IMG/VR virus record: IMGVR_UViG_3300010412_000056
Coordinates: 1 to 47,941 of that record
DNA from: a virus
Reading direction: 5' to 3' (one strand)
Length of the DNA stretch: 47,941 bases
Positions 9,615 through 29,111 of this stretch are shown piece after piece. Position numbers and translations under genes: made by a program. Numbering within the stretch: position 1 is the first letter of the stretch; every line of letters starts with the position of its first letter. The notes below the pieces were generated by a model, which saw only the letters and a program-made list of their open reading frames with translations, did no database searches and was not told where the DNA came from.

Positions 9615-10622
9615 ATGCCGGAGATACCTAATCCAAATGCGATTACCTCATATTGGACTGATAAACTAAAAACAGCAGCGCAGATGGTTGCTGCCGCTTC
9701 AACTGCTCCGGTAACCGGGACTGCCCCACTTGATACCCTTGGACAAAGCCAATACAATTTTCAATACAAGGTGTTTCCAAACGACATTGGTGCGGACTAT
9801 TTCGGTCACTATATGGTCATCAATATCAACGTTCCCACAAAAGGTTTCAGGTTATCGGCATCTGCTTTGACCGATGCGGCAGGGCAATATACAGGCTACT
9901 TCAACCAACTCAATCAGGCATCAAAGGTTGACGTTCTTCGATATGGTACATATGGCGGTGTAGGTACAGGTACAGGTGCCGCATCATTTATTCCCAGACA
10001 GACACGACGTATCGCTGAATCCATTGCTCTGTTTATTCCACAGGGCATGTATTGGTATCAGGAGCATTTCTGGGATGATATTTCCATGACCGAGTTGGCA
10101 GGCAAGATCGGTATCGGTATCACCAGCCAACTTCCTTTTGTAGGTGGATTAACAGCAGGCATGATTTCAAGTGCTACACAGCAAGGTGGCGCACTAAACC
10201 AAGCGGCACAGGTTATGGGAAGTCCTATCAATCCTGCCGTCGAGGTCATGTTCTCCACAACCGCACTTCGTCACTTCACCTTCGATTTTCTGTTTGCCCC
10301 ACGTAATCTTGAGGAGTCAGTCAACCTCAAAGAGATCATCACTCAAATCAAGTTTCATGGCGCTCCTGAAATCAATCCTAATACAATGGGTGCTACATGG
10401 ATTCCACCCGCAGAGTTCGACATCACGTTCTTTCACCAAGGGCAAGAGAACAGAAACATCGCGCGTATCAACACATGCGTTCTAGAGAACATCGAGGTTG
10501 ACTATCATCCGTCTGGAATGTGGTCTGCTTTTCGTAACGGGCATCCTGTTCAAGTCAGAATGCGCCTACAGTTTAGAGAAGTCGAGCCTATTCACAAACA
10601 AAGAATTTTGCAAGGATTTTAG
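9615..10622 (+). CDS. 48: Baseplate tail-tube cap/initiation protein, T4 gp48-like
   Basis: The 335-residue product (T4 gp48: 364) has the gp48/gp54 architecture. It has an N-terminal part with FPNDIG..YFGHYMVININVP, then RQTRRIAESIALFIPQGMYW (T4-like phages: KRT.E.I.LYMP), then NPAVEVMFSTTALRHFTFDF. It continues with LFAPRNLEESVNLKEIITQIKFH, PAEFDITFFHQGQEN and TCVLENIEVDYHPSG, ending in VRMRLQFREVE. It caps the baseplate hub and starts tail-tube polymerisation. A hydrophobic Gly-rich stretch at about residues 155-200 may insert or pack in the hub. It is the first gene of the plus-strand baseplate operon, under the late promoter at 9578. gp54 is the alternative name. Confidence 0.85.
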   Translation: MPEIPNPNAITSYWTDKLKTAAQMVAAASTAPVTGTAPLDTLGQSQYNFQYKVFPNDIGADYFGHYMVININVPTKGFRLSASALTDAAGQYTGYFNQLNQASKVDVLRYGTYGGVGTGTGAASFIPRQTRRIAESIALFIPQGMYWYQEHFWDDISMTELAGKIGIGITSQLPFVGGLTAGMISSATQQGGALNQAAQVMGSPINPAVEVMFSTTALRHFTFDFLFAPRNLEESVNLKEIITQIKFHGAPEINPNTMGATWIPPAEFDITFFHQGQENRNIARINTCVLENIEVDYHPSGMWSAFRNGHPVQVRMRLQFREVEPIHKQRILQGF

Positions 10623-10626
10623 AGTA

Positions 10627-10654
10627 TTACAGGGTTTCTGGTATGCTATATACT
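10627..10654 (+). promoter_or_regulatory. Sigma70-like promoter for the GIY-YIG endonuclease gene
   Basis: TTACAG (10627-10632) and TATACT (10649-10654) are spaced 16 bases apart, directly after the gp48 stop. A transcript would start near 10661, just before the AGGAG ribosome site at 10667-10671. The element is restricted to this insert, consistent with a mobile gene carrying its own promoter. Confidence 0.45.
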
Positions 10655-10677
10655 GCTATGGAAAAAAGGAGACTCCA

Positions 10678-11319
10678 ATGGCAGTGATTTATAAAGCGAC
10701 AAACACAGTGAATGGTAAGGAATATATCGGTTTTGCTCTTGATCTGGAACGAAGAAAAAGAGCACACTACAACAGAGCCAATCGCGGTGATGGTGAATAC
10801 TTTCATAATGCGATTCGTAAATATGGATTTGATGCGTTTGAGTGGGCAGTGCTAAAAGAAGAGGCAACACTTGACGACGAGATATTATTGATCGAACAGC
10901 ATGGAACATATGAAAACGGCTATAACTTGACGAAAGGTGGAGAAGGTAAGTTGGGATGTGAAGTAACAGAAGAGACTAAACAAAAGATTTCAAAGGCACG
11001 AAAAAAACAAGTTCTTACGGAAAACCAAATCAGAGCATTACGTGAAAACGCAAAGCGTATGAAAGAACGGGGACACACACCAGAAGCAAGAGCTAAAATA
11101 TCTGAAGCCAATAAGAATAGAAAGTTCACTAAGGAACACAGAGCCAATATTTCTAAAAACCACGCTGCCTATAAAGAGACGGGCGCATACTATCAAAGCG
11201 AAGAATATAAGGAAAAAATGAGCAAAGCGAAAAAAGGCGAAAAAAGAACACCAGAGCAAAAAGAGCATTATAGACAAGCGGCACTAAAGCGCGAAAAAGC
11301 AAAAAGAGAGCAACAATAA
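10678..11319 (+). CDS. Free-standing GIY-YIG homing endonuclease with NUMOD-type repeats
   Basis: The 213-residue product starts MAVIYKATNTVNGKEYIGFA (GIY as VIY, YIG as YIG), then DLERRKRAHY with the expected catalytic Arg, and LLIEQHGTYENGYNLTKGGEG with the Glu and the Asn. Residues 100-213 hold several Lys/Arg-rich DNA-binding modules (EETKQKISKARKK, TPEARAKISEANKNRKFTKEHR), typical of NUMOD3 repeats. The ATG at 10678 has AGGAG six bases upstream; longer in-frame extensions into gp48 are rejected. gp48 and gp53 are both intact, so this is an intergenic mobile gene and not an intron. It is visibly more A-rich and Lys-rich than its neighbours, a sign of transfer. Confidence 0.88.
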   Translation: MAVIYKATNTVNGKEYIGFALDLERRKRAHYNRANRGDGEYFHNAIRKYGFDAFEWAVLKEEATLDDEILLIEQHGTYENGYNLTKGGEGKLGCEVTEETKQKISKARKKQVLTENQIRALRENAKRMKERGHTPEARAKISEANKNRKFTKEHRANISKNHAAYKETGAYYQSEEYKEKMSKAKKGEKRTPEQKEHYRQAALKREKAKREQQ

Positions 11320-12015
11320 ATGTCCAACTTCTTTTCTAACTTTCCTATACTTGGCTACGATATTGCCAATAAACAGTATAGCAACTTTCAGCTAACAACC
11401 AATATTTTTATTCGCTTTCGATTTCTCAAAGAGGTGCTTGGAAATATTTCCGCTTACTATGAATACATTGTTTCCGACTACGACACGCCCGAGATCATAG
11501 CAGACAAGATATATGGCGATCCAGAAGCCCACTGGATCATTTTGTTAGCAAATGATATGGTCGATGCTCAGTACGATTGGGTTCTGAGCGACAGAGATTT
11601 TCGTAACTACATCATAAACAAGTATGGATCAGTCGAGACAGCAAAAACAACCGACCATCATTATGAAAAAGTAATAGTCAGAGAGCAGCAAGCCACAGGC
11701 ACCACATCAGAGACACGCTTTGTGGTCAATAAGGAAAAACTGACCGATAATGACTTGGATGTTCCATATGACTACTATGAAGGGGATGGCTCGCTTGTCG
11801 AGACAGCAGGATTGAGCACCTATAACTTGTCGGATGGCATGACCGTGATCGAGGTGGTTAGCCGAGATGTAATATCATGCTACGACTATGAATACAACCT
11901 GAACGAAGCAAAGAGAACGATCAAGATCATTAAACCTGAATACTATCCTCAGATCATGCGTGAGTTTACCGCGATGCTCAAAGCAGAGCCCTCGTTCATT
12001 AGAAAACTGGTATAA
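11320..12015 (+). CDS. 53: Baseplate wedge protein, T4 gp53-like
   Basis: The 231-residue product (T4: 196) has the typical gp53 core. FSNFPILGYDI is followed by NIFIRFRFLKEVLGNISAYYEYIVSDYDTPEIIADKIYGDPEAHW, with WIILLANDMVDAQYDWVLSDRDFRNYIINKYGS next, equivalent to the wedge core in which a LysM-like fold was reported. The C-terminal half (VVNKEKL...YDYEYNLNEAKRTIKIIKPEYY) resembles the repeats shared by other wedge proteins. The gene starts directly after the endonuclease stop and its stop overlaps the gp27 ATG (TAATG). gp53 joins six wedges around the hub during baseplate assembly. Confidence 0.9.
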   Translation: MSNFFSNFPILGYDIANKQYSNFQLTTNIFIRFRFLKEVLGNISAYYEYIVSDYDTPEIIADKIYGDPEAHWIILLANDMVDAQYDWVLSDRDFRNYIINKYGSVETAKTTDHHYEKVIVREQQATGTTSETRFVVNKEKLTDNDLDVPYDYYEGDGSLVETAGLSTYNLSDGMTVIEVVSRDVISCYDYEYNLNEAKRTIKIIKPEYYPQIMREFTAMLKAEPSFIRKLV

Positions 12016-13232
12016 TGGCAGACACACAAGCTAATCAGATACAAGGCTTACTAGCCCAATATGAAGTCTACTTGAACGGCGTTTCTATGAATACGCTCAC
12101 AGCGGTCACGCCTGTTGAGTTGATACTAGGTGAAAGCTTGTTGACTCCCGGCTTACAGACATCGTTGAGAGTTCACAGTTATTATCACCAGTTACCGGTC
12201 AAGGATTTGAATGACTACAAGGGCAAGGGTATTTCTGCTCATATCAAAAGAGATTGCTTGGCACCATTTGGAATACCGACCACAATGGATATTGCCCAGA
12301 CCATGTATCGAATAGACAATCGCAGACCTATAGGACATCAGGTCGAGGAGTTTGTTATTCATGCCTGCGACCATACATTGCTTAGAGATGCCGAGCACCT
12401 TGTTAGCAAGTCATGGAAATGTACCACACCGTCGCAAGTCGTGAGCGAGGTTCTTTCTCATTGCGTTCAACCGACCAATATGTTTGTGGAAAGCACAGCA
12501 CCAGCGCGAGATTACATTGCTGAAAACATTCATCCGTTTCAGGTGGTAGCACAGCAAGCAAATGCGGCACTGGTAGCAGGAAATGACCCATCATTGCTAC
12601 ACTATATGACCTACCACAACTTGGGAACGCATTGGTTTTATTCGCTATATACACTTACAAGAAAAGCGCCTGTAGCTACATTTACATATAGTGAAATCGG
12701 CTCGGCAGCGGGATACGGAAACCCCCATAGCCTTATGACTCAATCATTTCCTTGCGATTTTGACTTACTTTCGGACATTTTGAACGGTGTTGATGCCAAT
12801 GGAAATGATATTAACTCAATCGTTCTTTTCAATCCTGTTTTCAAAACGTTCAGCCTGCTAGGAAATCAGTCATTGGGTTGTGGGTTGGGTGGTGGTGTAA
12901 TGAAAAGTTCTATTTCAAATGCCGGTTCTGCCGGTCAGCAAAACATGTGCCCCGATTATTCCGAATTATGGCTACTGAAAAGACAAGCACGAATGGCACT
13001 ATTGGAACAAGATAAAATAGCTGCCCGAATAGTTGTGCCATGGCAACCTCAGTTACATGCCGGAGAAGTCATAACACTCGATCTGTGGAACAGAGAGCAG
13101 CCAACGCTAAAAAACTATGGTTCGGGCGATTATTTGGTGGTGAGCATGACTCATAATCTGAAACTCGGAGGATTTTCTACAACTACATTGGATTGCGTTT
13201 CAACAACGGTCGGTCAAGGAGGTATTTTATAA
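12015..13232 (+). CDS. 27: Baseplate central hub, T4 gp27-like
   Basis: The 405-residue product (T4 gp27: 391) has the size and position of gp27 and shows VgrG/gp27 hub features. These are a beta-rich N-terminal half with AQYEVYLNGVSMNTLTAV and paired barrel segments (VEEFVIHACDHTLLRDAEHLVSKSW). It also has a central PSQVVSEVLSHCV helix and a MTYHNLGTHWFYSLYTL segment. The C-terminal strand set (AARIVVPWQPQLHAGEVITLDLWN) leads into GDYLVVSMTHNLKLGGFSTTTLDCV, which is common in hub proteins. gp27 trimers form the pseudohexameric ring holding the gp5 spike. It is followed after one base by the gp5 OB-fold gene, supporting the call. Confidence 0.82.
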   Translation: MADTQANQIQGLLAQYEVYLNGVSMNTLTAVTPVELILGESLLTPGLQTSLRVHSYYHQLPVKDLNDYKGKGISAHIKRDCLAPFGIPTTMDIAQTMYRIDNRRPIGHQVEEFVIHACDHTLLRDAEHLVSKSWKCTTPSQVVSEVLSHCVQPTNMFVESTAPARDYIAENIHPFQVVAQQANAALVAGNDPSLLHYMTYHNLGTHWFYSLYTLTRKAPVATFTYSEIGSAAGYGNPHSLMTQSFPCDFDLLSDILNGVDANGNDINSIVLFNPVFKTFSLLGNQSLGCGLGGGVMKSSISNAGSAGQQNMCPDYSELWLLKRQARMALLEQDKIAARIVVPWQPQLHAGEVITLDLWNREQPTLKNYGSGDYLVVSMTHNLKLGGFSTTTLDCVSTTVGQGGIL

Positions 13233-13233
13233 C

Positions 13234-14511
13234 ATGTCTCTACCTAAGAGATTTCCACAAGATGCGGGTATACAGATTGCTTGTGTGTATGGGCAGGGTG
13301 GCGTATCGGATGAGATTCAAGACCCGCTAAAGGCATGTAACATGCAAGTCTGGTCACCAACAGAGCACAGTTGGGCAGGCGTTGAACCAAACCATCTTGC
13401 TTTGAGCCCGCAGTTTCGTAAAACACAGTCAGAGTTTCCCAGACCGCCCGATCCGGGGTCTTTTGTTTATTGCTTGAAGACAACCGGCAGAAGCGATGTG
13501 GTTGTGTTGGGGCAGGCAAATGAAATGGTGAATCCAAGCACCTCGACAGGCGGCAACATCAACTTGTTCATGATGAATCCATACTTACAGGAAGCATTCA
13601 ATCGTCGTTTGAAAATGTACCCACTTCCTCAATACAAGGAACAGATGAAGCGCGGTGCTCTCATTCGTGAGGTTCAAGAAAAGGGAGATCAATACTATCA
13701 CGGTATGCTTCAAGGTTTGCCGTCGCAAGCCAGCATTTATCCTATGGCAATGATCACACAACAAGCAAAAAAGGGTGTTGAGACTGCCAAGGAGCATTTT
13801 GCTAATGTGCTTGGTATGAACCAAATCTCAGGACTTGCTGGACAGGTCATGTCGCTTGGTAAAATGTTTAGCAATTTGAGCAACAGCAACAAGAAAAAGA
13901 TCAAGCAGAACATGCCTAATGAGACACAGGCAGCGCTCGAAAGCTTGGCATACTTGCTACCGAATATCGAGACCAATGGTGGTGGTCATTATGCCACAGA
14001 TGCCAAGGTCAACGAAGACGTGTTCATGGCAAATGTTATTGATTTGTTATCGCAATGTACAACGATCAGCGACATCACGTCAGTGCTATCACGAGTTCAA
14101 ACGGACACATCATTGTATGGGCTCGAACAGCTTCCAAATATACACATAACATACAGCACACCACATGGTAATGTGGATCAGATTATCGCTGCCAACGGCA
14201 CTCTCTACACAGCAAACAGCAACACCACAAACGCAACTAGCAAAAGCAAGAGTTCGTTTGGCAGTTTCATGAGTTCAGCAGCAACAGCAGGCGGTTCACC
14301 GGCTTCTTTACCGGGTCAGAATATGTTTGGTGATAGTGCTGGTACTATGTTTGACATGATGCAGCGCGTATTTCCGAGTGGTGAGCAAACTGCCATGCAG
14401 ACAGTTGAGAAGACAAACAGACAGAACAAAGCGATAAACAGAAACAAAATCGTAACAGATTGTTGTAATCAGAATAGCTTACTAGAAAAAATAGCAGAGC
14501 AGTTAGCATAA
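13234..14511 (+). CDS. 5: gp5 N-terminal OB-fold hub protein without a lysozyme domain
   Basis: The 425-residue product starts with an OB-fold like T4 gp5 residues 1-130: DPLKACNMQVWSPTEHSW, then DPGSFVYCLKTTGRSDVVVLGQ. After about residue 120 it differs from T4. A Met/Gln/Lys-rich helical region (res 120-240) is followed by a Cys/Thr region (SQCTTISDITSVLSRVQ) and a Ser/Gly-rich stretch. No lysozyme catalytic triad of the T4 gp5 type is visible. The needle portion is encoded by the next gene, so gp5 is split into two. It is the bridge between gp27 and the spike. Confidence 0.7.
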   Translation: MSLPKRFPQDAGIQIACVYGQGGVSDEIQDPLKACNMQVWSPTEHSWAGVEPNHLALSPQFRKTQSEFPRPPDPGSFVYCLKTTGRSDVVVLGQANEMVNPSTSTGGNINLFMMNPYLQEAFNRRLKMYPLPQYKEQMKRGALIREVQEKGDQYYHGMLQGLPSQASIYPMAMITQQAKKGVETAKEHFANVLGMNQISGLAGQVMSLGKMFSNLSNSNKKKIKQNMPNETQAALESLAYLLPNIETNGGGHYATDAKVNEDVFMANVIDLLSQCTTISDITSVLSRVQTDTSLYGLEQLPNIHITYSTPHGNVDQIIAANGTLYTANSNTTNATSKSKSSFGSFMSSAATAGGSPASLPGQNMFGDSAGTMFDMMQRVFPSGEQTAMQTVEKTNRQNKAINRNKIVTDCCNQNSLLEKIAEQLA

Positions 14512-14514
14512 GAC

Positions 14515-15333
14515 ATGGCAAATAAGACACCAGATCATCCACAAGAAGCAGGTCCTTACTCTCCCACCAAATGGGATACACGAGAGGATGCCTACAAACA
14601 TGCTGGTGAATATCCAAACCAGAACTACACTCGAACGCAGTCTGGTCATACCATCATGTATGACGACACCAAAGATAAGGAACACTTGACTCTACAACAT
14701 CGCTCTGGTGCGCGTATTCAAATGGGTCCAACGGGTGATATTCAGCTTATCGCTCACAATGGTCAATACAGTATTGTGTTTGGTGAGAACCGCATGGAAG
14801 TCACTGGCACACATGATGTGACGATCAAGGGTGGTGGAACACTCAAGGTCGATGGAGACTATGATGTAACCGTTGGTGGTGATGTGAATATGGCAGCGGA
14901 TGGTGACTTCAACTGGAAAGGTAAGTCATTCAACATGCTTGGTGGTGGCAACTTCGATATGGAAGTAAAGAACATGACGATCAAAACAGAAGGCTCATCC
15001 ACACTACACTCAGCCGGAGCAGTTTCTATTACAGGAGGCACGCTTGCTGCTGTTTCATCACAAGAGGGTGCTGTTGTATTAGCTGCTTCATCGAGTGTTG
15101 GTGTTTATGCCAAGGGTGGTGATGTGGCAATTCAAGCCCAAGGTGGCAGCGTTCACATAAAAACACCGCAAGAAATCAACATGGACGGTGCTCAAAACGT
15201 CTGGATCAACTCAGGTAAATCACGAAACGCAACTGAGATTGTTTCATGGCAGGCACCAAAACATCCGACAGAACAAGTTAGAAGGGGATCACCCGGTAAA
15301 CCATCAATGCCGAGACACGGCACTTATGTATAG
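14515..15333 (+). CDS. Spike/needle protein, T4 gp5 C-terminal beta-helix as a separate gene
   Basis: The 272-residue product has an N-terminal linker with GHTIMYDDTKDKEHLTLQHRSG, matching the start of the gp5C/VgrG needle. It is followed by a run of short repeats with Gly-Asp turns (TIKGGGTLKVDGDYDVTVGG, then DVNMAADGDFNWKGKSF and later copies). These form the triple-stranded beta-helix. The end (INMDGAQNVWINSG) resembles the tip-binding end that carries PAAR in related spikes. A PAAR-like protein is encoded at 31027. The gene follows the OB-fold gene after three bases. It is about twice as long as the T4 gp5 needle, suggesting a longer spike. AAGACATGG precedes it; the ribosome site is weak. 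Confidence 0.85.
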   Translation: MANKTPDHPQEAGPYSPTKWDTREDAYKHAGEYPNQNYTRTQSGHTIMYDDTKDKEHLTLQHRSGARIQMGPTGDIQLIAHNGQYSIVFGENRMEVTGTHDVTIKGGGTLKVDGDYDVTVGGDVNMAADGDFNWKGKSFNMLGGGNFDMEVKNMTIKTEGSSTLHSAGAVSITGGTLAAVSSQEGAVVLAASSSVGVYAKGGDVAIQAQGGSVHIKTPQEINMDGAQNVWINSGKSRNATEIVSWQAPKHPTEQVRRGSPGKPSMPRHGTYV

Positions 15334-15341
15334 CATAAATA
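15334..15341 (+). promoter_or_regulatory. Late-promoter-like motif CATAAATA before gp25
   Basis: CATAAATAG differs from the T4 late consensus at one base. It is very close to the gp25 ATG (15349), leaving almost no leader, so it could serve gp6 and later genes or produce a nearly leaderless mRNA. Confidence 0.35.
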
Positions 15342-15348
15342 GGTAACC

Positions 15349-15765
15349 ATGGCAAGAAACATCACACGTATCAAAGACTTTTGCGATCTGGACCTTGATT
15401 TTATCGCGCATCCTACAACAAAGGATGTGGTGAAAAAGAAAGGTGTGGAAGCAATACGCAGATCAGTCAGAAATCTTGTTCTGACCAACTTTTATGAGCG
15501 CAAGTTTCGCCATTACATAGGCTCAAATGCGCAGAAAATACTGTTCGACAACATCAATCCACTGACGGCAACGTTTCTGAAAAATGCCATCATCGAAACC
15601 ATTGTGAACTTTGAACCAAGAGTTCAATTAGTGGATGAAGGAAACGACGGAGTGCTGGTTCAAATAGCACCCGACAGCAATGGCTATAATGTACGCATTT
15701 CATTTATCGTGATAAATACAGGAGCACCCGCAGTTATAACCCTATTTCTCGAAAGAATCCGCTAA
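15349..15765 (+). CDS. 25: Baseplate wedge protein, T4 gp25-like
   Basis: The 138-residue product (T4: 132) has the lysozyme-like fold signature of gp25. It starts with ITRIKDFCDLDLDF, then VVKKKGVEAIRRSVRNLVLTNFYERKFR, with a conserved basic VRNLVLTNFYERKF helix. NPLTATFLKNAIIETIVNFEPRVQL and a C-terminal VLVQIAPD...ISFIVINTGA strand pair complete it. The name comes from fold similarity to lysozyme; in T4 it is a sheath initiator in the inner baseplate. The start has a weak AGG. The stop overlaps the gp6 ATG by one base, suggesting translational coupling. Confidence 0.93.
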   Translation: MARNITRIKDFCDLDLDFIAHPTTKDVVKKKGVEAIRRSVRNLVLTNFYERKFRHYIGSNAQKILFDNINPLTATFLKNAIIETIVNFEPRVQLVDEGNDGVLVQIAPDSNGYNVRISFIVINTGAPAVITLFLERIR

Positions 15766-17915
15766 TGGCAACCGAAAAAGCAGCACTGAGAATAACAGAA
15801 CTTGACTTTGATACGATTCGAGAGAATCTGAAAGCATATCTGCGAAGCCAAAACGAGTTTCAGGATTATGATTTTGAAGGCTCCGGCTTATCTGTTCTGT
15901 TAGATATTCTGGCATACAATACTCACTATATGGGCTTCTATTTGAACATGGTGGGAAACGAAATGTTTCTCGATACTGCCCAAGTTCGCACATCAATTCT
16001 ATCTCTTGCCAAAGCCATCGGGTATGTTCCAGAAAGTCGTAAGGGCGCTCTTTCTCGCTTGAATATCACTGCCACTCCCTCCAACACAGAAGATCAAGAT
16101 ACAACAATCATCACACTAGAAAAGTACACAAGACTTTTGGGGTCAGATGTCGATGGAGTCAACTATCCGTTCGTCACTCTTTACTCAAACACCGCTTCCA
16201 AAAATACGGGGTCATTTGCCTTCTCTAATATCTACGTCAAGCAGGGAGAGGTCTCTACACAACAGTTTCAGATGCTTCCAACGAACACAACGCGCCGTTT
16301 TGAACTACCCAGCGCGAACGTTGATATGGATTCGTTGGTAGTTACTGTTCAAGCATCTTCATCAAACACAGACACACACCAGTATACACTTGCTGACGAC
16401 ATTACAGAGTTGACCGCAAACTCGATGGTCTATTTCATGGAGGAGAACGAGAACCTCAATTACACGATCTATTTCGGTGACAACTACATTGGTAAGAAGC
16501 CACAAGACGGTAGTATTATCATCTGTACATATCTTGATACTGTTGGAACACCAGCAAACAACATTTCCAAATTCACGTTCATCGAACCAGTCGGAGACAA
16601 GTATTCTGATAACGTGATCGTAACCGCTGCCGCATCATCCTATGGTGGTGTGGATAAGGAAACAATCGAGCAGGTTCGTTTCCGTGCTCCGTATTTCTAT
16701 ACATCGCAGAATCGAGCGGTTACAGTGAACGACTATGAAACACTCATGACCAAAGAGTACAACTTCATCGATGCCATCTCTGTCTGGGGTGGTGAAGACA
16801 ACGATCCGGTTGTGTATGGTAAGGTTTATGCTTCTATCAAGACAACGGGTAACTACCATCTCACAAACCTTGAAAAGGAACGCATCAAGGATGAATTGAT
16901 TCGCACTCGTAACGTGCTGACCGTCACACCTGAGATTGTCGATCCAGACTATACCTACATTCTTGTTCGTGCCACAGTGAACTATGATGCGGCACTTACA
17001 GGACGAAGCACCGGTCAACTTGAAGAATTGGTACGCGCTGCTATTCAAGACTACAATGATACGGAACTGAACAAGTTCAATGCCACCTTTCGCAAGAGCA
17101 AGCTTCAACACTACATCGACAATTGCGAGAAGTCGATCACTGGTTCGGACATTCGTATCTTCGCTCAGAGACGTTTCCTTATCGATACCAACAAAACAAA
17201 GAGCTATGAGATCAACTTCTATAGTCCAATTTCACGAGACACACTCACTGAACGATTGGTAACCTTTCCTGAACTTTCGGTACAGGATGCCAACAGAATC
17301 GCAAGGCGCACATACATCGATGAGTCGGCAGTCATATCAACCGGTATCGAATCTATAACTGTTACGAATAGTGGCATTGGATACTTGAGCACACCTACTG
17401 TAACAATCATTGGTGATGGATCGGGCGCAACTGCCACAGCAAAGATTCTTTCCGGAAAGGTGGTTGGTATCACAGTAACAAATGCTGGTCAAAACTACAC
17501 CTCTGCCGTCGTTTCCATAACCGGTGGAGAGGGCTCTGGCGCATATGGTGTTGCCACTCTACAAGCTTCAAAAGGTTTGCTAAGAACCATCTATTACAAG
17601 TCAAATGGTGAAAAGTCGGTTATCAATCCAACAGCGGGAACGATTGATTTTGAGACGGGAAGAATCACGATTGACGCACTTAGAGCATTTGATATTTACG
17701 AAAATGACCTGTACGACGACGGCTATTTGACTCTCTCAGTACCTATGAGAAACGATTCCATTTCCGTCGTTCGAGAAAGAATCCTGACTATCGATGATAA
17801 CGATCCAAAGGCAGTAACGGTGGAAATGGTCGCTAAACTCTCAGGTTCCTTTCTTTGTAAGAAACGACCATCAGACTTTTGTGGCATTTTTGGAAGCCTA
17901 TTACGAGTACCTTGA
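15765..17915 (+). CDS. 6: Baseplate wedge protein, T4 gp6-like, with an inserted GxGY repeat and an odd C-terminus
   Basis: The 716-residue product (T4: 660) begins LRITELDFDTIRENLKAYLRSQNEFQDYDFEGSGLSVLLDILAYNTHY, the typical gp6/J-like start. The core includes GDNYIGKKPQDGSIIICTYL, an RFRAPYFYTSQNRAVTVNDYE segment (the loop of the gp6/J family) and a domain from about residue 270 with TTGNYHL. Residues about 525-605 are a GxGY repeat pair (TVTNSGIGYLSTPTVTI). The last 28 residues after about AVTVEMVA read SGSFLCKKRPSDF and on. Those codons overlap another frame that encodes the conserved start of the next protein, so the true end is doubtful. gp6 dimers form the inner baseplate ring. Confidence 0.85.
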   Translation: MATEKAALRITELDFDTIRENLKAYLRSQNEFQDYDFEGSGLSVLLDILAYNTHYMGFYLNMVGNEMFLDTAQVRTSILSLAKAIGYVPESRKGALSRLNITATPSNTEDQDTTIITLEKYTRLLGSDVDGVNYPFVTLYSNTASKNTGSFAFSNIYVKQGEVSTQQFQMLPTNTTRRFELPSANVDMDSLVVTVQASSSNTDTHQYTLADDITELTANSMVYFMEENENLNYTIYFGDNYIGKKPQDGSIIICTYLDTVGTPANNISKFTFIEPVGDKYSDNVIVTAAASSYGGVDKETIEQVRFRAPYFYTSQNRAVTVNDYETLMTKEYNFIDAISVWGGEDNDPVVYGKVYASIKTTGNYHLTNLEKERIKDELIRTRNVLTVTPEIVDPDYTYILVRATVNYDAALTGRSTGQLEELVRAAIQDYNDTELNKFNATFRKSKLQHYIDNCEKSITGSDIRIFAQRRFLIDTNKTKSYEINFYSPISRDTLTERLVTFPELSVQDANRIARRTYIDESAVISTGIESITVTNSGIGYLSTPTVTIIGDGSGATATAKILSGKVVGITVTNAGQNYTSAVVSITGGEGSGAYGVATLQASKGLLRTIYYKSNGEKSVINPTAGTIDFETGRITIDALRAFDIYENDLYDDGYLTLSVPMRNDSISVVRERILTIDDNDPKAVTVEMVAKLSGSFLCKKRPSDFCGIFGSLLRVP

Positions 17916-20900
17916 GCAGGATACAAAAGTAGTAAACCGCATCAAGAATACCGACACTTATTACGATATTGATCGAACCCTCGATGAGTTTGCCGAGTAT
18001 CTTTACGACACATTTCTAAAACTTGTTTCTCGAAACGTTCTGGCAGACAAAGCACTGCTTCTCAAGAACATCAAGGATTTTTACCGAGCACGCGGCACTG
18101 AGAAGTCGGTGAAATTTCTCATGCGTATTTTGTTCGATGAGGAAATAGATTTCTACTATCCAAAAAAGGACATTCTCAAAGCATCAGATGGCAAATGGTA
18201 TATAGAAAAGTCGCTTCGCGTTACAGATACAAAGATAGATGATGAAGAAGCCCTTTCCATTGCCGATCTAGAAAAATACATCAGCACCAGAATAACCGGT
18301 TTGAAAACGGAATCCCAAGCGACAATCGAGCGCGTCGATAGGTATTACGAAACTGGTGTTCAGATTGACGAGTTGATTCTTTCCAATATCGACGGAGAGT
18401 TCGAGGGCGGTGAGCAGATCATTGCTCAGTTTAGCGATACAGAAGCCACAAGAAATATTAGCTCCAACATCATTTCTGGTATTGTTTCCTCATTGACGAT
18501 CACTAACAGTGGTTCTCTTTACGAGGTTGGTGATCCGGTCATCATTCTGAGCAGTACAGGTTCAGGCGCATGTGCTACTATCGGAACAGTTACAAGTGGT
18601 AACATTGCCTCGTTGGTTGTTGAAGACGGCGGCGCGGGTTATCTGACAAACGACTGGATTCTTGTAACTGGTGGCGGTGGTACAGGTGGTAACGGTAACG
18701 TTTCAACAGTTCTATCTGATGGTTCGGTTCATCCAAACACCTATAACATCTCGAACAGCACAATCTCAGTCGAGCAAAACACGCCACTCAACAACACTCA
18801 ATACAGCAACCTAAAAGCATCTGACGTAAACTCAGCACTTGAAGACGCACTTTATTTCTGGCAATATGCCAATACCGGACCAGTTCAAACCGTGGCAATC
18901 ATCGATGCCGGTTACGGATATACATCTGCTCCAACCCTTTCTATTTCTGCCAACAGTCGCATTCAGGCACTTGGTATTATTGGCAAGTTGGAAATCGTTG
19001 ACGGTGGTTCGAACTATGCCATTGGAGACATGATTTATTTCGAGAACGTGCCGGGTGGTTATGGTTGTGGAGCGTTGGCTAATGTTTGGAACGTCAATGC
19101 CGCAGCATCAGATGCCATTTCAGAAGTCCGCTTGATCGAAATGCCCGGACACATCATTGGTGGTTCTGGCTATGACATGAGCTATTTGCCCACATGTAAT
19201 ATAGACTCGGGTACGGGATCAGGTGCCAATGTTGTCGTCACGGCATTGCTTGGTACTGGTGTGGAACTACGTGCCGCTAATACGACTCTGGGTGCTATTC
19301 AACGAGTCATTCTGTGGAGTGGTGGTTCGGGTTACTTGGAAGAACCAACCATCGATATGACCGGTTATGGTGATGGAACAGCTACCATTTCAGCGACGTA
19401 CATCACTGGTATTTACCAGTATCCGGGCAGATACCTGAATGACGACGGGCATGTAAGCAGTTATAACTTCCTACAGGATCGTGATTACTATCAGAACTTC
19501 TCGTATGTGATCAAAACCAAGCAGTCAATCGACAAGTTCAGATCATATGTAAGAACACTGGTTCACCCATCAGGCACAAAGATGTTTGGTGAGGTTCAGA
19601 ATGATGACGCTGTATGCTCATCCACAATCGAAATGCCGGAACGCGAGAACTTGATCGATAAGTGGTGGGCAAACGGAACCAACTCACTCAACACATTCAA
19701 TCTGTCTTGGAGTAGTGGCTATAGTGGTTCGGACCCGTGGACTTCTTTATATTCCATGACTAACATGTTGAGCAATGATACTGTATCGTTTGCTCATACC
19801 GATGCGACGGCGGGTAATCGAGAATGGTTGAAGTTTGAGTGGGGACAAGAATATCTTATTGATGAGATACAGATACGAAATAGAGCATCACCGGGAGCAG
19901 TCGCAGAAAGATTTGGCAACTCTAATGTCAATGTGTTGGACGCAAACAGCAATGTCATTTACACTTATTGGATCGATCCGGCTCTTTGCTTTGCCCCAAA
20001 TACTGTTGTGGGTTCGTTACATACCATTCACCTTCCATATCCAATGATGGCAAATGGTGTCAATATTGTAGGAAACGTATGTGCCACCTCTACATCAGAA
20101 TATTTGAACCTTGGAACAATCGATGTGTATGGCTGGGATGAACCCATAGATGAAGTGTTCGCTCCTGTCGCATCGGGTACATCAAACACAACGCAGTCGC
20201 TTATCGTCAACACCACACTGACATGGGCAAACTCAAACGGCGCATTCTTCAATCCAACGATCTATCTGCCAAACAGTTATTTGGCGAAGGGTGATAAGGT
20301 CACAGTCGAGTTCCTTGCTGGTAATGTCTACAACGTGATGGCAAACGTTTCGACCTACACACCAGATGGCATCTATACCGTTGCCAACTCTATCAATGCC
20401 AATCTCATCGAGGTTCATTCCGGTAAGTGGCTACAGGGATCGATAAATGTTAATGTCCAAACTCCTGAAACATCAGGTCTTCAGGGTCTTTATATGAGAT
20501 CAGATGGTTTGAAAATGTATGCTCATGGTACATCAACAGACAGAGTGTACGAGTTTAGTTTATCAAAACCGTGGGATGTTACGTCTGGTGTTTATAGTCA
20601 AGTAAGTCCTGACCTAACTTTAGGTGTCGAAGGAACAGGAACAGCCATACGTTTTGGTGCGAATGGGACTATACTTTATTACGGGGGAACCCAAACCGAT
20701 ACCATTTATTCATTCGAATTATCTGAAGCTTGGAATGTCAATACAGCGTCATATTTGGCAAGATCACCAAACTTTAACTCAGAGCATAGTGAAAGTAACT
20801 TAACTGGATTTGAAATAAGCGCAAATGGGGATTACCTATATGCTGTTGGGTCTGGAACAGACATCATATATCAATACTCCCTTTCTGAATCTTGGAATAT

Positions 20901-21306
20901 TAACACTGCTACCTATTATGCTGAACAACATGTTGGAAATGAGGACAGCTATCCGACAGCGATGTGGATCAATTCTTCTGGTAACACAATGTTCATTTAT
21001 GGGACAACGAACGACAGAATCATCAAATATTCATTCTCAGAAGCATGGAATGTCAACACGGCATCGGTTATGGCTAATCAAAACTCAGCAAGCTTGGTGG
21101 GGACATATGGTGTGAGTGGCAATGAGATAGATTTCAAATCTGATGGAACGTTAGTTTATATAACTGATAGCGCAAGACGCATAGTCGGACAAATATCTAT
21201 GACCGAGGCATGGAACGCAAATACCATGGTTGTTCATACCTCATCGACCGAAAACGTTCGTGTCGGAAAGATCATAAATACAGGGATCAATAGATACTTC
21301 TATTAA
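17818..21306 (+). CDS. gp7-like baseplate wedge protein with GxGY repeats and C-terminal beta-propeller; start codon uncertain
   Basis: The frame is open from 17818 (stop at 17815-17817). The only standard start near the beginning is GTG at 17881, giving 1141 residues. The 63 upstream bases encode SLNSQVPFFVRNDHQTF, which looks like a conserved N-terminus of this family, but have no ATG, GTG or TTG. Residues 1-150 (from GTG) form a helical tail domain (AFLEAYYEYLEQ..., AYLYDTFLKLVSRNVLADKALLLKNIKDF). Residues 190-520 hold GxGY repeats. FLQDRDYYQNFSYVIKTKQS to GTKMFGE at about 527-565 is a conserved phage motif. Residues 630-720 look discoidin-like. Residues 860-1120 hold five blades with the pattern S-E-A-W-N-V-N-T-A. 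It is likely a large outer wedge protein with a host-binding propeller. Confidence 0.65.
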   Translation, partial: RWKWSLNSQVPFFVRNDHQTFVAFLEAYYEYLEQDTKVVNRIKNTDTYYDIDRTLDEFAEYLYDTFLKLVSRNVLADKALLLKNIKDFYRARGTEKSVKFLMRILFDEEIDFYYPKKDILKASDGKWYIEKSLRVTDTKIDDEEALSIADLEKYISTRITGLKTESQATIERVDRYYETGVQIDELILSNIDGEFEGGEQIIAQFSDTEATRNISSNIISGIVSSLTITNSGSLYEVGDPVIILSSTGSGACATIGTVTSGNIASLVVEDGGAGYLTNDWILVTGGGGTGGNGNVSTVLSDGSVHPNTYNISNSTISVEQNTPLNNTQYSNLKASDVNSALEDALYFWQYANTGPVQTVAIIDAGYGYTSAPTLSISANSRIQALGIIGKLEIVDGGSNYAIGDMIYFENVPGGYGCGALANVWNVNAAASDAISEVRLIEMPGHIIGGSGYDMSYLPTCNIDSGTGSGANVVVTALLGTGVELRAANTTLGAIQRVILWSGGSGYLEEPTIDMTGYGDGTATISATYITGIYQYPGRYLNDDGHVSSYNFLQDRDYYQNFSYVIKTKQSIDKFRSYVRTLVHPSGTKMFGEVQNDDAVCSSTIEMPERENLIDKWWANGTNSLNTFNLSWSSGYSGSDPWTSLYSMTNMLSNDTVSFAHTDATAGNREWLKFEWGQEYLIDEIQIRNRASPGAVAERFGNSNVNVLDANSNVIYTYWIDPALCFAPNTVVGSLHTIHLPYPMMANGVNIVGNVCATSTSEYLNLGTIDVYGWDEPIDEVFAPVASGTSNTTQSLIVNTTLTWANSNGAFFNPTIYLPNSYLAKGDKVTVEFLAGNVYNVMANVSTYTPDGIYTVANSINANLIEVHSGKWLQGSINVNVQTPETSGLQGLYMRSDGLKMYAHGTSTDRVYEFSLSKPWDVTSGVYSQVSPDLTLGVEGTGTAIRFGANGTILYYGGTQTDTIYSFELSEAWNVNTASYLARSPNFNSEHSESNLTGFEISANGDYLYAVGSGTDIIYQYSLSESWNINTATYYAEQHVGNEDSYPTAMWINSSGNTMFIYGTTNDRIIKYSFSEAWNVNTASVMANQNSASLVGTYGVSGNEIDFKSDGTLVYITDSARRIVGQISMTEAWNANTMVVHTSSTENVRVGKIINTGINRYFY

Positions 21307-21317
21307 GTAGGAAAAAC

Positions 21318-22655
21318 ATGACCACAAGCTGTACTTTCAGAAATTTGAGTGTCAATAACGCGGAACAGTTTTTGGAATCCGTTTCCGAACCCGCGCCTAA
21401 TACCAAAATCTATTTTACGTTTGGTAAGATAGATGATTGGGCAAACGTCAGTTCGCCCGATGAGGCTAACTCAAGCATCGCAGCAACGTATGAGCACTGG
21501 TCAAATATGATTGGTGGTAAACGTATTGTGGGCGGTGACTTTCACCATGTTGTTCGTAGGTTCGATTGGGTTGCGAATACTCGTTACGTTGCCTATGATC
21601 ATATGAATCCTAATCTTCATGACGGAAACACCAATTTTTATGTGGTTACCAGCGAATACAACGTCTATAAATGCCTATCAAACAACATGAACTCGATCTC
21701 CACTATCGAACCCACTGCTATCAATCCATATTCCACTACCACGACATCTGATGGCTACATTTGGAAATACATGTACACCATCTCTGATTCCGAGCAGCTT
21801 CGCTTTACCACAGATGGATATATTCCGGTAAAGATTCTATCTCAGGATGACGCTTCGACACAGTGGGAAGTACAGCAAAACGCAGACGAGGGTGGTATTC
21901 TAGCAATCGAGGTCACAGATGGTGGCGTTGGGTACACTAATGCCTCGAACATCGTTATCACTTCTGTTGGTGATGGCACAGGATTAGCCGCTATGGCAAC
22001 GATTAACAACATCTCAAACACGGTAAATGCCGTGATTGTTACCGATTCGGGCGATGATTACACATTTGCCTATATCACAATAACAGATGGATCGCCAGAG
22101 GGTGGAGCTAATGCCAAAGCACGGGCGATCATCAGCCCTCCCGGTGGACATGGATCGAACCCATTATATGAACTTGGTGGTAAGGATATTATGATCAACG
22201 CTCGCCTGAAATACGACGAAGAGGGTGTATTACCAGTCACAAATGAATATCGGCAAGTAGGTCTTTTGAAGGACCCAGTGGATAGATCGACAGGAAATGT
22301 TGCTTCGCTGGCAGCATTTGTTCAAGCTACGAAAATCACCGTGGTTGGTTCTGGTGACTATGAGGAAGATGAGTATGTTTATCAGGGAGCCAACCTTTTG
22401 ACTGCCAGCTTCTCAGGCAAGGTAGTTTCTTGGAACTCTGTAACTGGTGAGGTTTTGATTATAAATACAAAAGGAACCCCATCTGCCGCACAAAGTCTTG
22501 TTGGTTCGGAAAGTTTCACCGCAAAAACCGTTTCGAGCATCACAGAAGGAGAAATGAATAAGTATTCCGGACATCTCCTTTACATGAATAACTTTGAGGC
22601 AATACAACGCGACCCGGAACAAATCGAAGACTACAAGATAGTGATAAAATTCTAA
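21318..22655 (+). CDS. 8: Baseplate wedge protein, T4 gp8-like
   Basis: The 445-residue product (T4: 334) has the gp8 signature. SVSEPAPNTKIYFTFGKIDDWAN is followed by ATYEHWSNMIGGKRI, then HHVVRRFDWVANTRYVAYDHMN, FYVVTSEYNVYKCLSNN and TSDGYIWKYMYTISDSEQLRF. The extra length is a GxGY repeat region around residues 195-265 (AIEVTDGGVGYTNAS, VNAVIVTDSGDDYTFAYI). The C-terminus (SFTAKTVSSITEGEMN, YMNNFEAIQRDPEQIEDYKI) is as in T4-like phages. gp8 dimers link gp6, gp7 and gp10 in the wedge. GTAGGAAAAAC lies just upstream of the ATG. Confidence 0.93.
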   Translation: MTTSCTFRNLSVNNAEQFLESVSEPAPNTKIYFTFGKIDDWANVSSPDEANSSIAATYEHWSNMIGGKRIVGGDFHHVVRRFDWVANTRYVAYDHMNPNLHDGNTNFYVVTSEYNVYKCLSNNMNSISTIEPTAINPYSTTTTSDGYIWKYMYTISDSEQLRFTTDGYIPVKILSQDDASTQWEVQQNADEGGILAIEVTDGGVGYTNASNIVITSVGDGTGLAAMATINNISNTVNAVIVTDSGDDYTFAYITITDGSPEGGANAKARAIISPPGGHGSNPLYELGGKDIMINARLKYDEEGVLPVTNEYRQVGLLKDPVDRSTGNVASLAAFVQATKITVVGSGDYEEDEYVYQGANLLTASFSGKVVSWNSVTGEVLIINTKGTPSAAQSLVGSESFTAKTVSSITEGEMNKYSGHLLYMNNFEAIQRDPEQIEDYKIVIKF

Positions 22656-28562: not shown

Positions 28563-29111
28563 ATGGAGAAGTATGGATTTGTTTATATTTGGTACGATAG
28601 AAAGCACAAGCGATATTATGTGGGATGCCGATGGGGAGATGAAAATGATGGATACATATGCTCATCCCCATGGATGAAACGAGCATACAATAATAGACCA
28701 CAAGACTTTAGAAGGCGTATTTTGGCAAGAGTATACTCAAACAAAAAAGACCTATTAGCAGAAGAATACAAATGGTTGAGCCAAATAAAGAAAGAAGAGT
28801 TGAAAGTACGATACTATAACTTACACAACCACCACTTCGCTCATTGGGCATCAGATGAAAATTCGAAACTCACTGTGAGTGAAAAAATAAAAAAGCACCA
28901 TGCTTCAAAGGAGTTCAGAAAACAAGCAAGTGAGGCAAAACTGGGAGACAAAAATCCGATGAAAGACCCAGAAGTGGTTGCCAAAAGATTAGAGACATGG
29001 AAAAAAGGAAATCATGTGGCTTGGAACAAGGGAAAAAAGACTGGACCTAATCCAGAACACTCGGAAAGAATGAAGGGTCGCATTCCTTGGAACAAGGGGT
29101 TGAAGTTATGA
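28563..29111 (+). CDS. Second free-standing GIY-YIG homing endonuclease
   Basis: The 182-residue product has FVYIWYD (GIY) and RYYVGCRWG (YIG) in the first 26 residues. SPWMKRAYNNRPQDFRRRIL carries the basic helix, LLAEEYKWLSQI the Glu helix, and YYNLHNHHFAHW an unusual His-rich segment. The C-terminal half is Lys/Arg-rich with NUMOD-like modules (SEKIKKHHASKEFRKQASEAK, then KNPMKDPEVVAKRLETWKKG, then WNKGKKTGPNPEHSERMKGR). It differs clearly in sequence from the enzyme at 10678, so the two entered independently. AGGAGG lies five bases upstream of the ATG and is masked by a hairpin. Flanking genes are intact. Confidence 0.85.
   Translation: MEKYGFVYIWYDRKHKRYYVGCRWGDENDGYICSSPWMKRAYNNRPQDFRRRILARVYSNKKDLLAEEYKWLSQIKKEELKVRYYNLHNHHFAHWASDENSKLTVSEKIKKHHASKEFRKQASEAKLGDKNPMKDPEVVAKRLETWKKGNHVAWNKGKKTGPNPEHSERMKGRIPWNKGLKL

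Follow-up and report, generated by a model that had tools for sequence, protein, structure and literature searches.

A probable short deletion at the gp6/gp7 boundary of a T4-like phage contig mimics a +1 frameshift site

The window comprises the full length of an IMG/VR virus record (47,941 bp) and contains the baseplate cluster of a T4-like phage, in which gp25 (15349-15765), gp6, gp7 and gp8 (21318-22655) are arranged in the order gp25-gp6-gp7-gp8, and both this order and the profile matches (PHROG, Pfam) are those of T4-like wedge genes. The gp6 ORF runs from 15765 to 17915 on the plus strand, and its authentic part, a gp6-like baseplate wedge sequence ending in ...AVTVEMV[A], occupies 15765-17829 (phrog_219; Pfam Gp6-like_1st and Gp6_C-III). 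The gp7-like baseplate wedge gene extends over 17830-21306 on the same strand (phrog_17744, E 8e-54; phrog_26741; Pfam Baseplate_wedge), but has lost its start codon together with some 9-10 codons at the N-terminus; its ORF from the first conventional start, GTG 17881, covers 17881-21306 and encodes 1141 aa. Inserts of the 'ITVTNSGIGYLSTPTVTIIGDGSGATATA' type are common to gp6 (17300-17580), the gp7-like gene (18460-19300) and gp8 (21900-22150), a distribution that would fit the spread of a single repeat module through the baseplate genes, and they match several PHROGs of structural proteins that are otherwise unrelated (phrog_701, 460 and 438). Two homing-endonuclease-like genes (phrog_314 and others) are also located among the structural genes, one with a GIY-YIG-type match after the tail tube cap gene (10498-11319) and one after a 1948-aa structural gene (28563-29111).

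At the gp6/gp7 junction, the gp7 frame has a TAA at 17815-17817 and is open from 17818, and none of its codons between 17818 and 17880 is ATG, GTG or TTG, or of the NTG or ATN type at all, the first start being GTG 17881. This frame scan agreed with the preliminary description, which had reported that the gp7-like N-terminus is encoded without a start codon after the TAA, and gave no support to the non-AUG or otherwise unusual start that it had offered as one explanation. The ATG at 17826 belongs to the gp6 frame, as had been noted, the gp7 frame is +1 relative to it, and the two frames overlap at +1 between 17818 and 17912. Positions 17830-17880 encode SLNSQVPFFVRNDHQTF, which matches relative L088 without a difference from the N of 'NSQ' onward, and in the gp7 frame the coding of the conserved peptide NSQVPFFVRNDHQTFVAFLEAY begins at 17836. 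The codon-usage signal passes from the gp6 frame to that of gp7 at about 17824-17836; the gp6 tail has a score of -7.4 when read in its own frame and of +4.8 when read in that of gp7, compared with a mean of +8.7 (sd 4.6) for true stretches of 27 codons. Moreover, the phrog_219 match to gp6 (E 2e-159, residues 8-689) ends at profile position 594 of 598, and because it stops at residue 689, the residues of the gp6 ORF after about 690 are foreign. The earlier suspicion that gp6 ends in some 28 residues of out-of-frame translation was thus borne out: the ORF continues about 28 codons too far, to 17915, and from the codon scores and the stop positions of relatives, 17830-17915 on the plus strand is a spurious C-terminal extension, an out-of-frame translation of gp7 that arises where the natural gp6 stop is missing.

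Relatives were gathered from IMG/VR with the gp7 N-terminus, gp6, the gp6 C-terminus, gp8 and gp25 as queries and with a DNA pattern, and further ones were drawn from annotated phages, three isolated phages included; identical junctions and those without upstream DNA were left out, and 103 distinct junctions were kept. An in-frame gp7 ATG was found in 101 of these, and the remaining two, L200 and phage phiN3, had GTG as the alternative start. Not one of the 103 lacked a gp7 start and not one showed a gp6-gp7 fusion, so that all 103 have their own gp7 start beside the gp6 stop, while the window alone has none. The commonest arrangement was TAATG, the gp6 stop and the gp7 ATG overlapping by one base (55 junctions), and in the 94 relatives in which both gp6 and the ATG were seen the gp6 stop was -11 to +16 nt from the gp7 ATG. 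Ochrobactrum phage vB_OspM_OC, Caulobacter phage Cr30 and Sinorhizobium phage phiN3 carry a homologous gp7-like protein (about 35% identity) directly after gp6, as in the window, but their gp6 and gp7 are separate genes overlapping by 4-8 nt, each gp7 with its own ATG or GTG start. Likewise, the window shares with T4-like myovirus wedge genes the gene order, the profiles and the Q.P.F N-terminal motif of this gp7 type, but not the overlap of gp6 stop and gp7 start, and about 40 nt are missing there. On these similarities, gp6 and gp7 of the window appear to be T4-like wedge members with a damaged boundary. No near-identical contig spanning the junction was found with gp6-end and gp7 N-terminal DNA patterns or with the gp6, gp7, gp8 and gp25 proteins, a search of the genome collection returned no relative, and the only match of a DNA search in phages was to T4-type phages, over 76 bp of gp6.

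The size of the missing interval was measured between two conserved peptides, 'RxRILxID' in gp6 and 'QVPFFV' in gp7. The anchor-to-anchor distance was 46 nt in the window versus 83-113 nt in 43 distinct relatives, with a mode of 86, which indicates that about 40 nt are missing. On the gp6 side, ILTIDDND....MVA is common to L089, L003 and the window, and on the gp7 side, NSQVPFFVRNDHQTFVAFLEAY is common to L088 and the window; the deletion junction is at 17828-17840 (plus strand). Judged against these relatives, the record therefore lacks the stop of gp6 and, from gp7, the start codon with the first 9-10 or so codons. Size and endpoints are approximate: no close relative covers the junction, and they are read from relatives at about 63-69% DNA identity whose own spacing differs by as much as 30 nt. 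Since 40 is 3x13 + 1 and not a multiple of 3, the deletion itself makes the +1 frame relation that resembles a frameshift site, and this interval and frame relation were found in no relative. A 14-bp quasi-palindrome (17758-17829, plus strand; 12 Watson-Crick and 2 G-U pairs, 44-nt loop) pairs 17758-17771 with 17816-17829, and its right arm ends exactly at the breakpoint. Of 50 control blocks, one had a pairing as long as 14 bp; the structure was absent from the five relatives examined. It may be due to chance, or it may have favoured the deletion during replication or library making.

The preliminary description had proposed a programmed +1 frameshift producing a gp6-gp7 fusion, and had suggested aligning the junction with related phages; in the relatives gp6 and gp7 are separate, each gp7 has its own start, and there is no fusion. 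Programmed +1 frameshifting does exist, for example in bacterial prfB, and like the window it involves two frames overlapping at +1, but the window has no shift motif and the arrangement is conserved in no relative. A shift within 17818-17912 would indeed yield a fusion, and the non-conserved 14-bp stem ends at 17829. In T4 tails gp6 and gp7 are present at 2:1, with 12 and 6 copies (PMC3004832), a ratio that partial shifting could match. However, there is no 0-frame stop and no recognised +1 shift motif near the site (CTC is a low-use codon, at 6.2 per thousand, yet makes no recognised motif), no downstream stimulatory fold was detected, as folding was no better than in shuffled sequences (z +0.93), and none of the elements looked for, a shift-prone site, a stop or hungry codon, or a stimulatory element, was found. 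The +1 overlap is, moreover, explained by the missing 40 nt, and no junction among the 103 is fused or without a gp7 start, so that we regard a programmed shift as highly improbable. None of the papers listed by a literature search described frameshifting at gp6/gp7. The same low probability holds for a combined version, in which, after a fixed deletion, gp6 would be made together with a gp6-gp7 fusion produced by a +1 frameshift at 17818-17839, at close to the 2:1 ratio of the wedge; we give it very little credence. Of the three explanations offered earlier, a single-base indel came nearest: the sequencing error would lie at ATGGTCGC, gp6 and gp7 would in truth be one in-frame fusion, and a one-base change in length there would bring ATG 17826 into the gp7 frame. 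Such an indel is nevertheless of the wrong size: correcting it would leave about 40 nt (3n+1), the gp6 stop and the gp7 N-terminus still missing compared with every relative, and no relative is fused, which makes it scarcely credible. That about 40 nt and not one base are missing could not have been seen by the earlier reader from the sequence alone.

We therefore consider a short deletion of about 40 nt (3n+1) at the gp6/gp7 boundary, most likely a sequencing or assembly defect or one defective variant captured in the contig, to be the best explanation, with a probability of roughly 0.9. In such a deletion the gp6 stop, the overlapping gp7 start and the N-terminal gp7 peptide, M(S/A)TNNKIS(N) in relatives, would be lost, and the last codons of gp6 (...VEMVA) would run straight into the gp7-like gene at about codon 10-12. 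The ancestor probably had the modal arrangement, and the lesion is likely to be recent because the gp7 N-terminus is otherwise intact. An alternative is that the deletion is real and fixed in a viable virus, with gp7 made from GTG 17881 (about 26-27 residues shorter) or by re-initiation, and gp6 carrying the 28-residue tail. Apart from this the DNA is intact, the 1141-aa ORF begins in frame at GTG 17881, and the gp6 stop follows 32 nt later, at 17913; however, unlike many other genes of the window, this GTG has no Shine-Dalgarno-like purine run upstream, a start there would lose the Q.P.F motif present in nearly all relatives, and no relative uses a start like it, so that we hold a fixed deletion to be rather unlikely. 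Wedge assembly in T4 follows a strict order and does not proceed past a missing component (PMC3004832); gp6 and gp7 both belong to this ordered series, so a virus unable to initiate gp7 should fail to assemble its tail. Over the first 170 codons shared with L177, the nearest relative (82% DNA identity), gp7 showed dN 0.055 and dS 1.04, the dS being near saturation, and by this comparison gp7 is under strong purifying selection. This selection and the strict wedge order favour an artefact or a defective molecule, whereas the lack of any other frame break (none was seen at 13.2-28.5 kb) and a 100% identity over 5,928 bp to a second record favour a real deletion; on balance we favour an artefact or defective variant by about two to one, which is a judgement and not a result. 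The identical region, 9619-15546, matches IMGVR_UViG_3300009506_000466, so the same virus is present in that record as well. Both nearest records stop short of the junction, the 100% one ending at 15546 and the 82% one beginning at 17908. A generally poor assembly is ruled out by the intact frames at 13.2-28.5 kb and the identical region. As for the kind of artefact, a chimera from multiple displacement amplification (MDA) is possible, but inversions are usual among such chimeras and short direct joins are a rare class, those less than 10 kb apart being 11 of 475 (PMC1855051).

Thus the junction is best read as an ordinary small deletion, which most likely reflects an artefact of sequencing or a defect confined to this site, and the frameshift interpretation is not supported; an apparent recoding site is explained as a local deletion. 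A real and fixed deletion would mean that this phage tolerates the loss of the gp6/gp7 boundary, which would be rare. Further, a single metagenome contig can mimic the signature of a frameshift, an open overlap with a conserved peptide that lacks a start, and comparison with relatives dissolves that signature at once.
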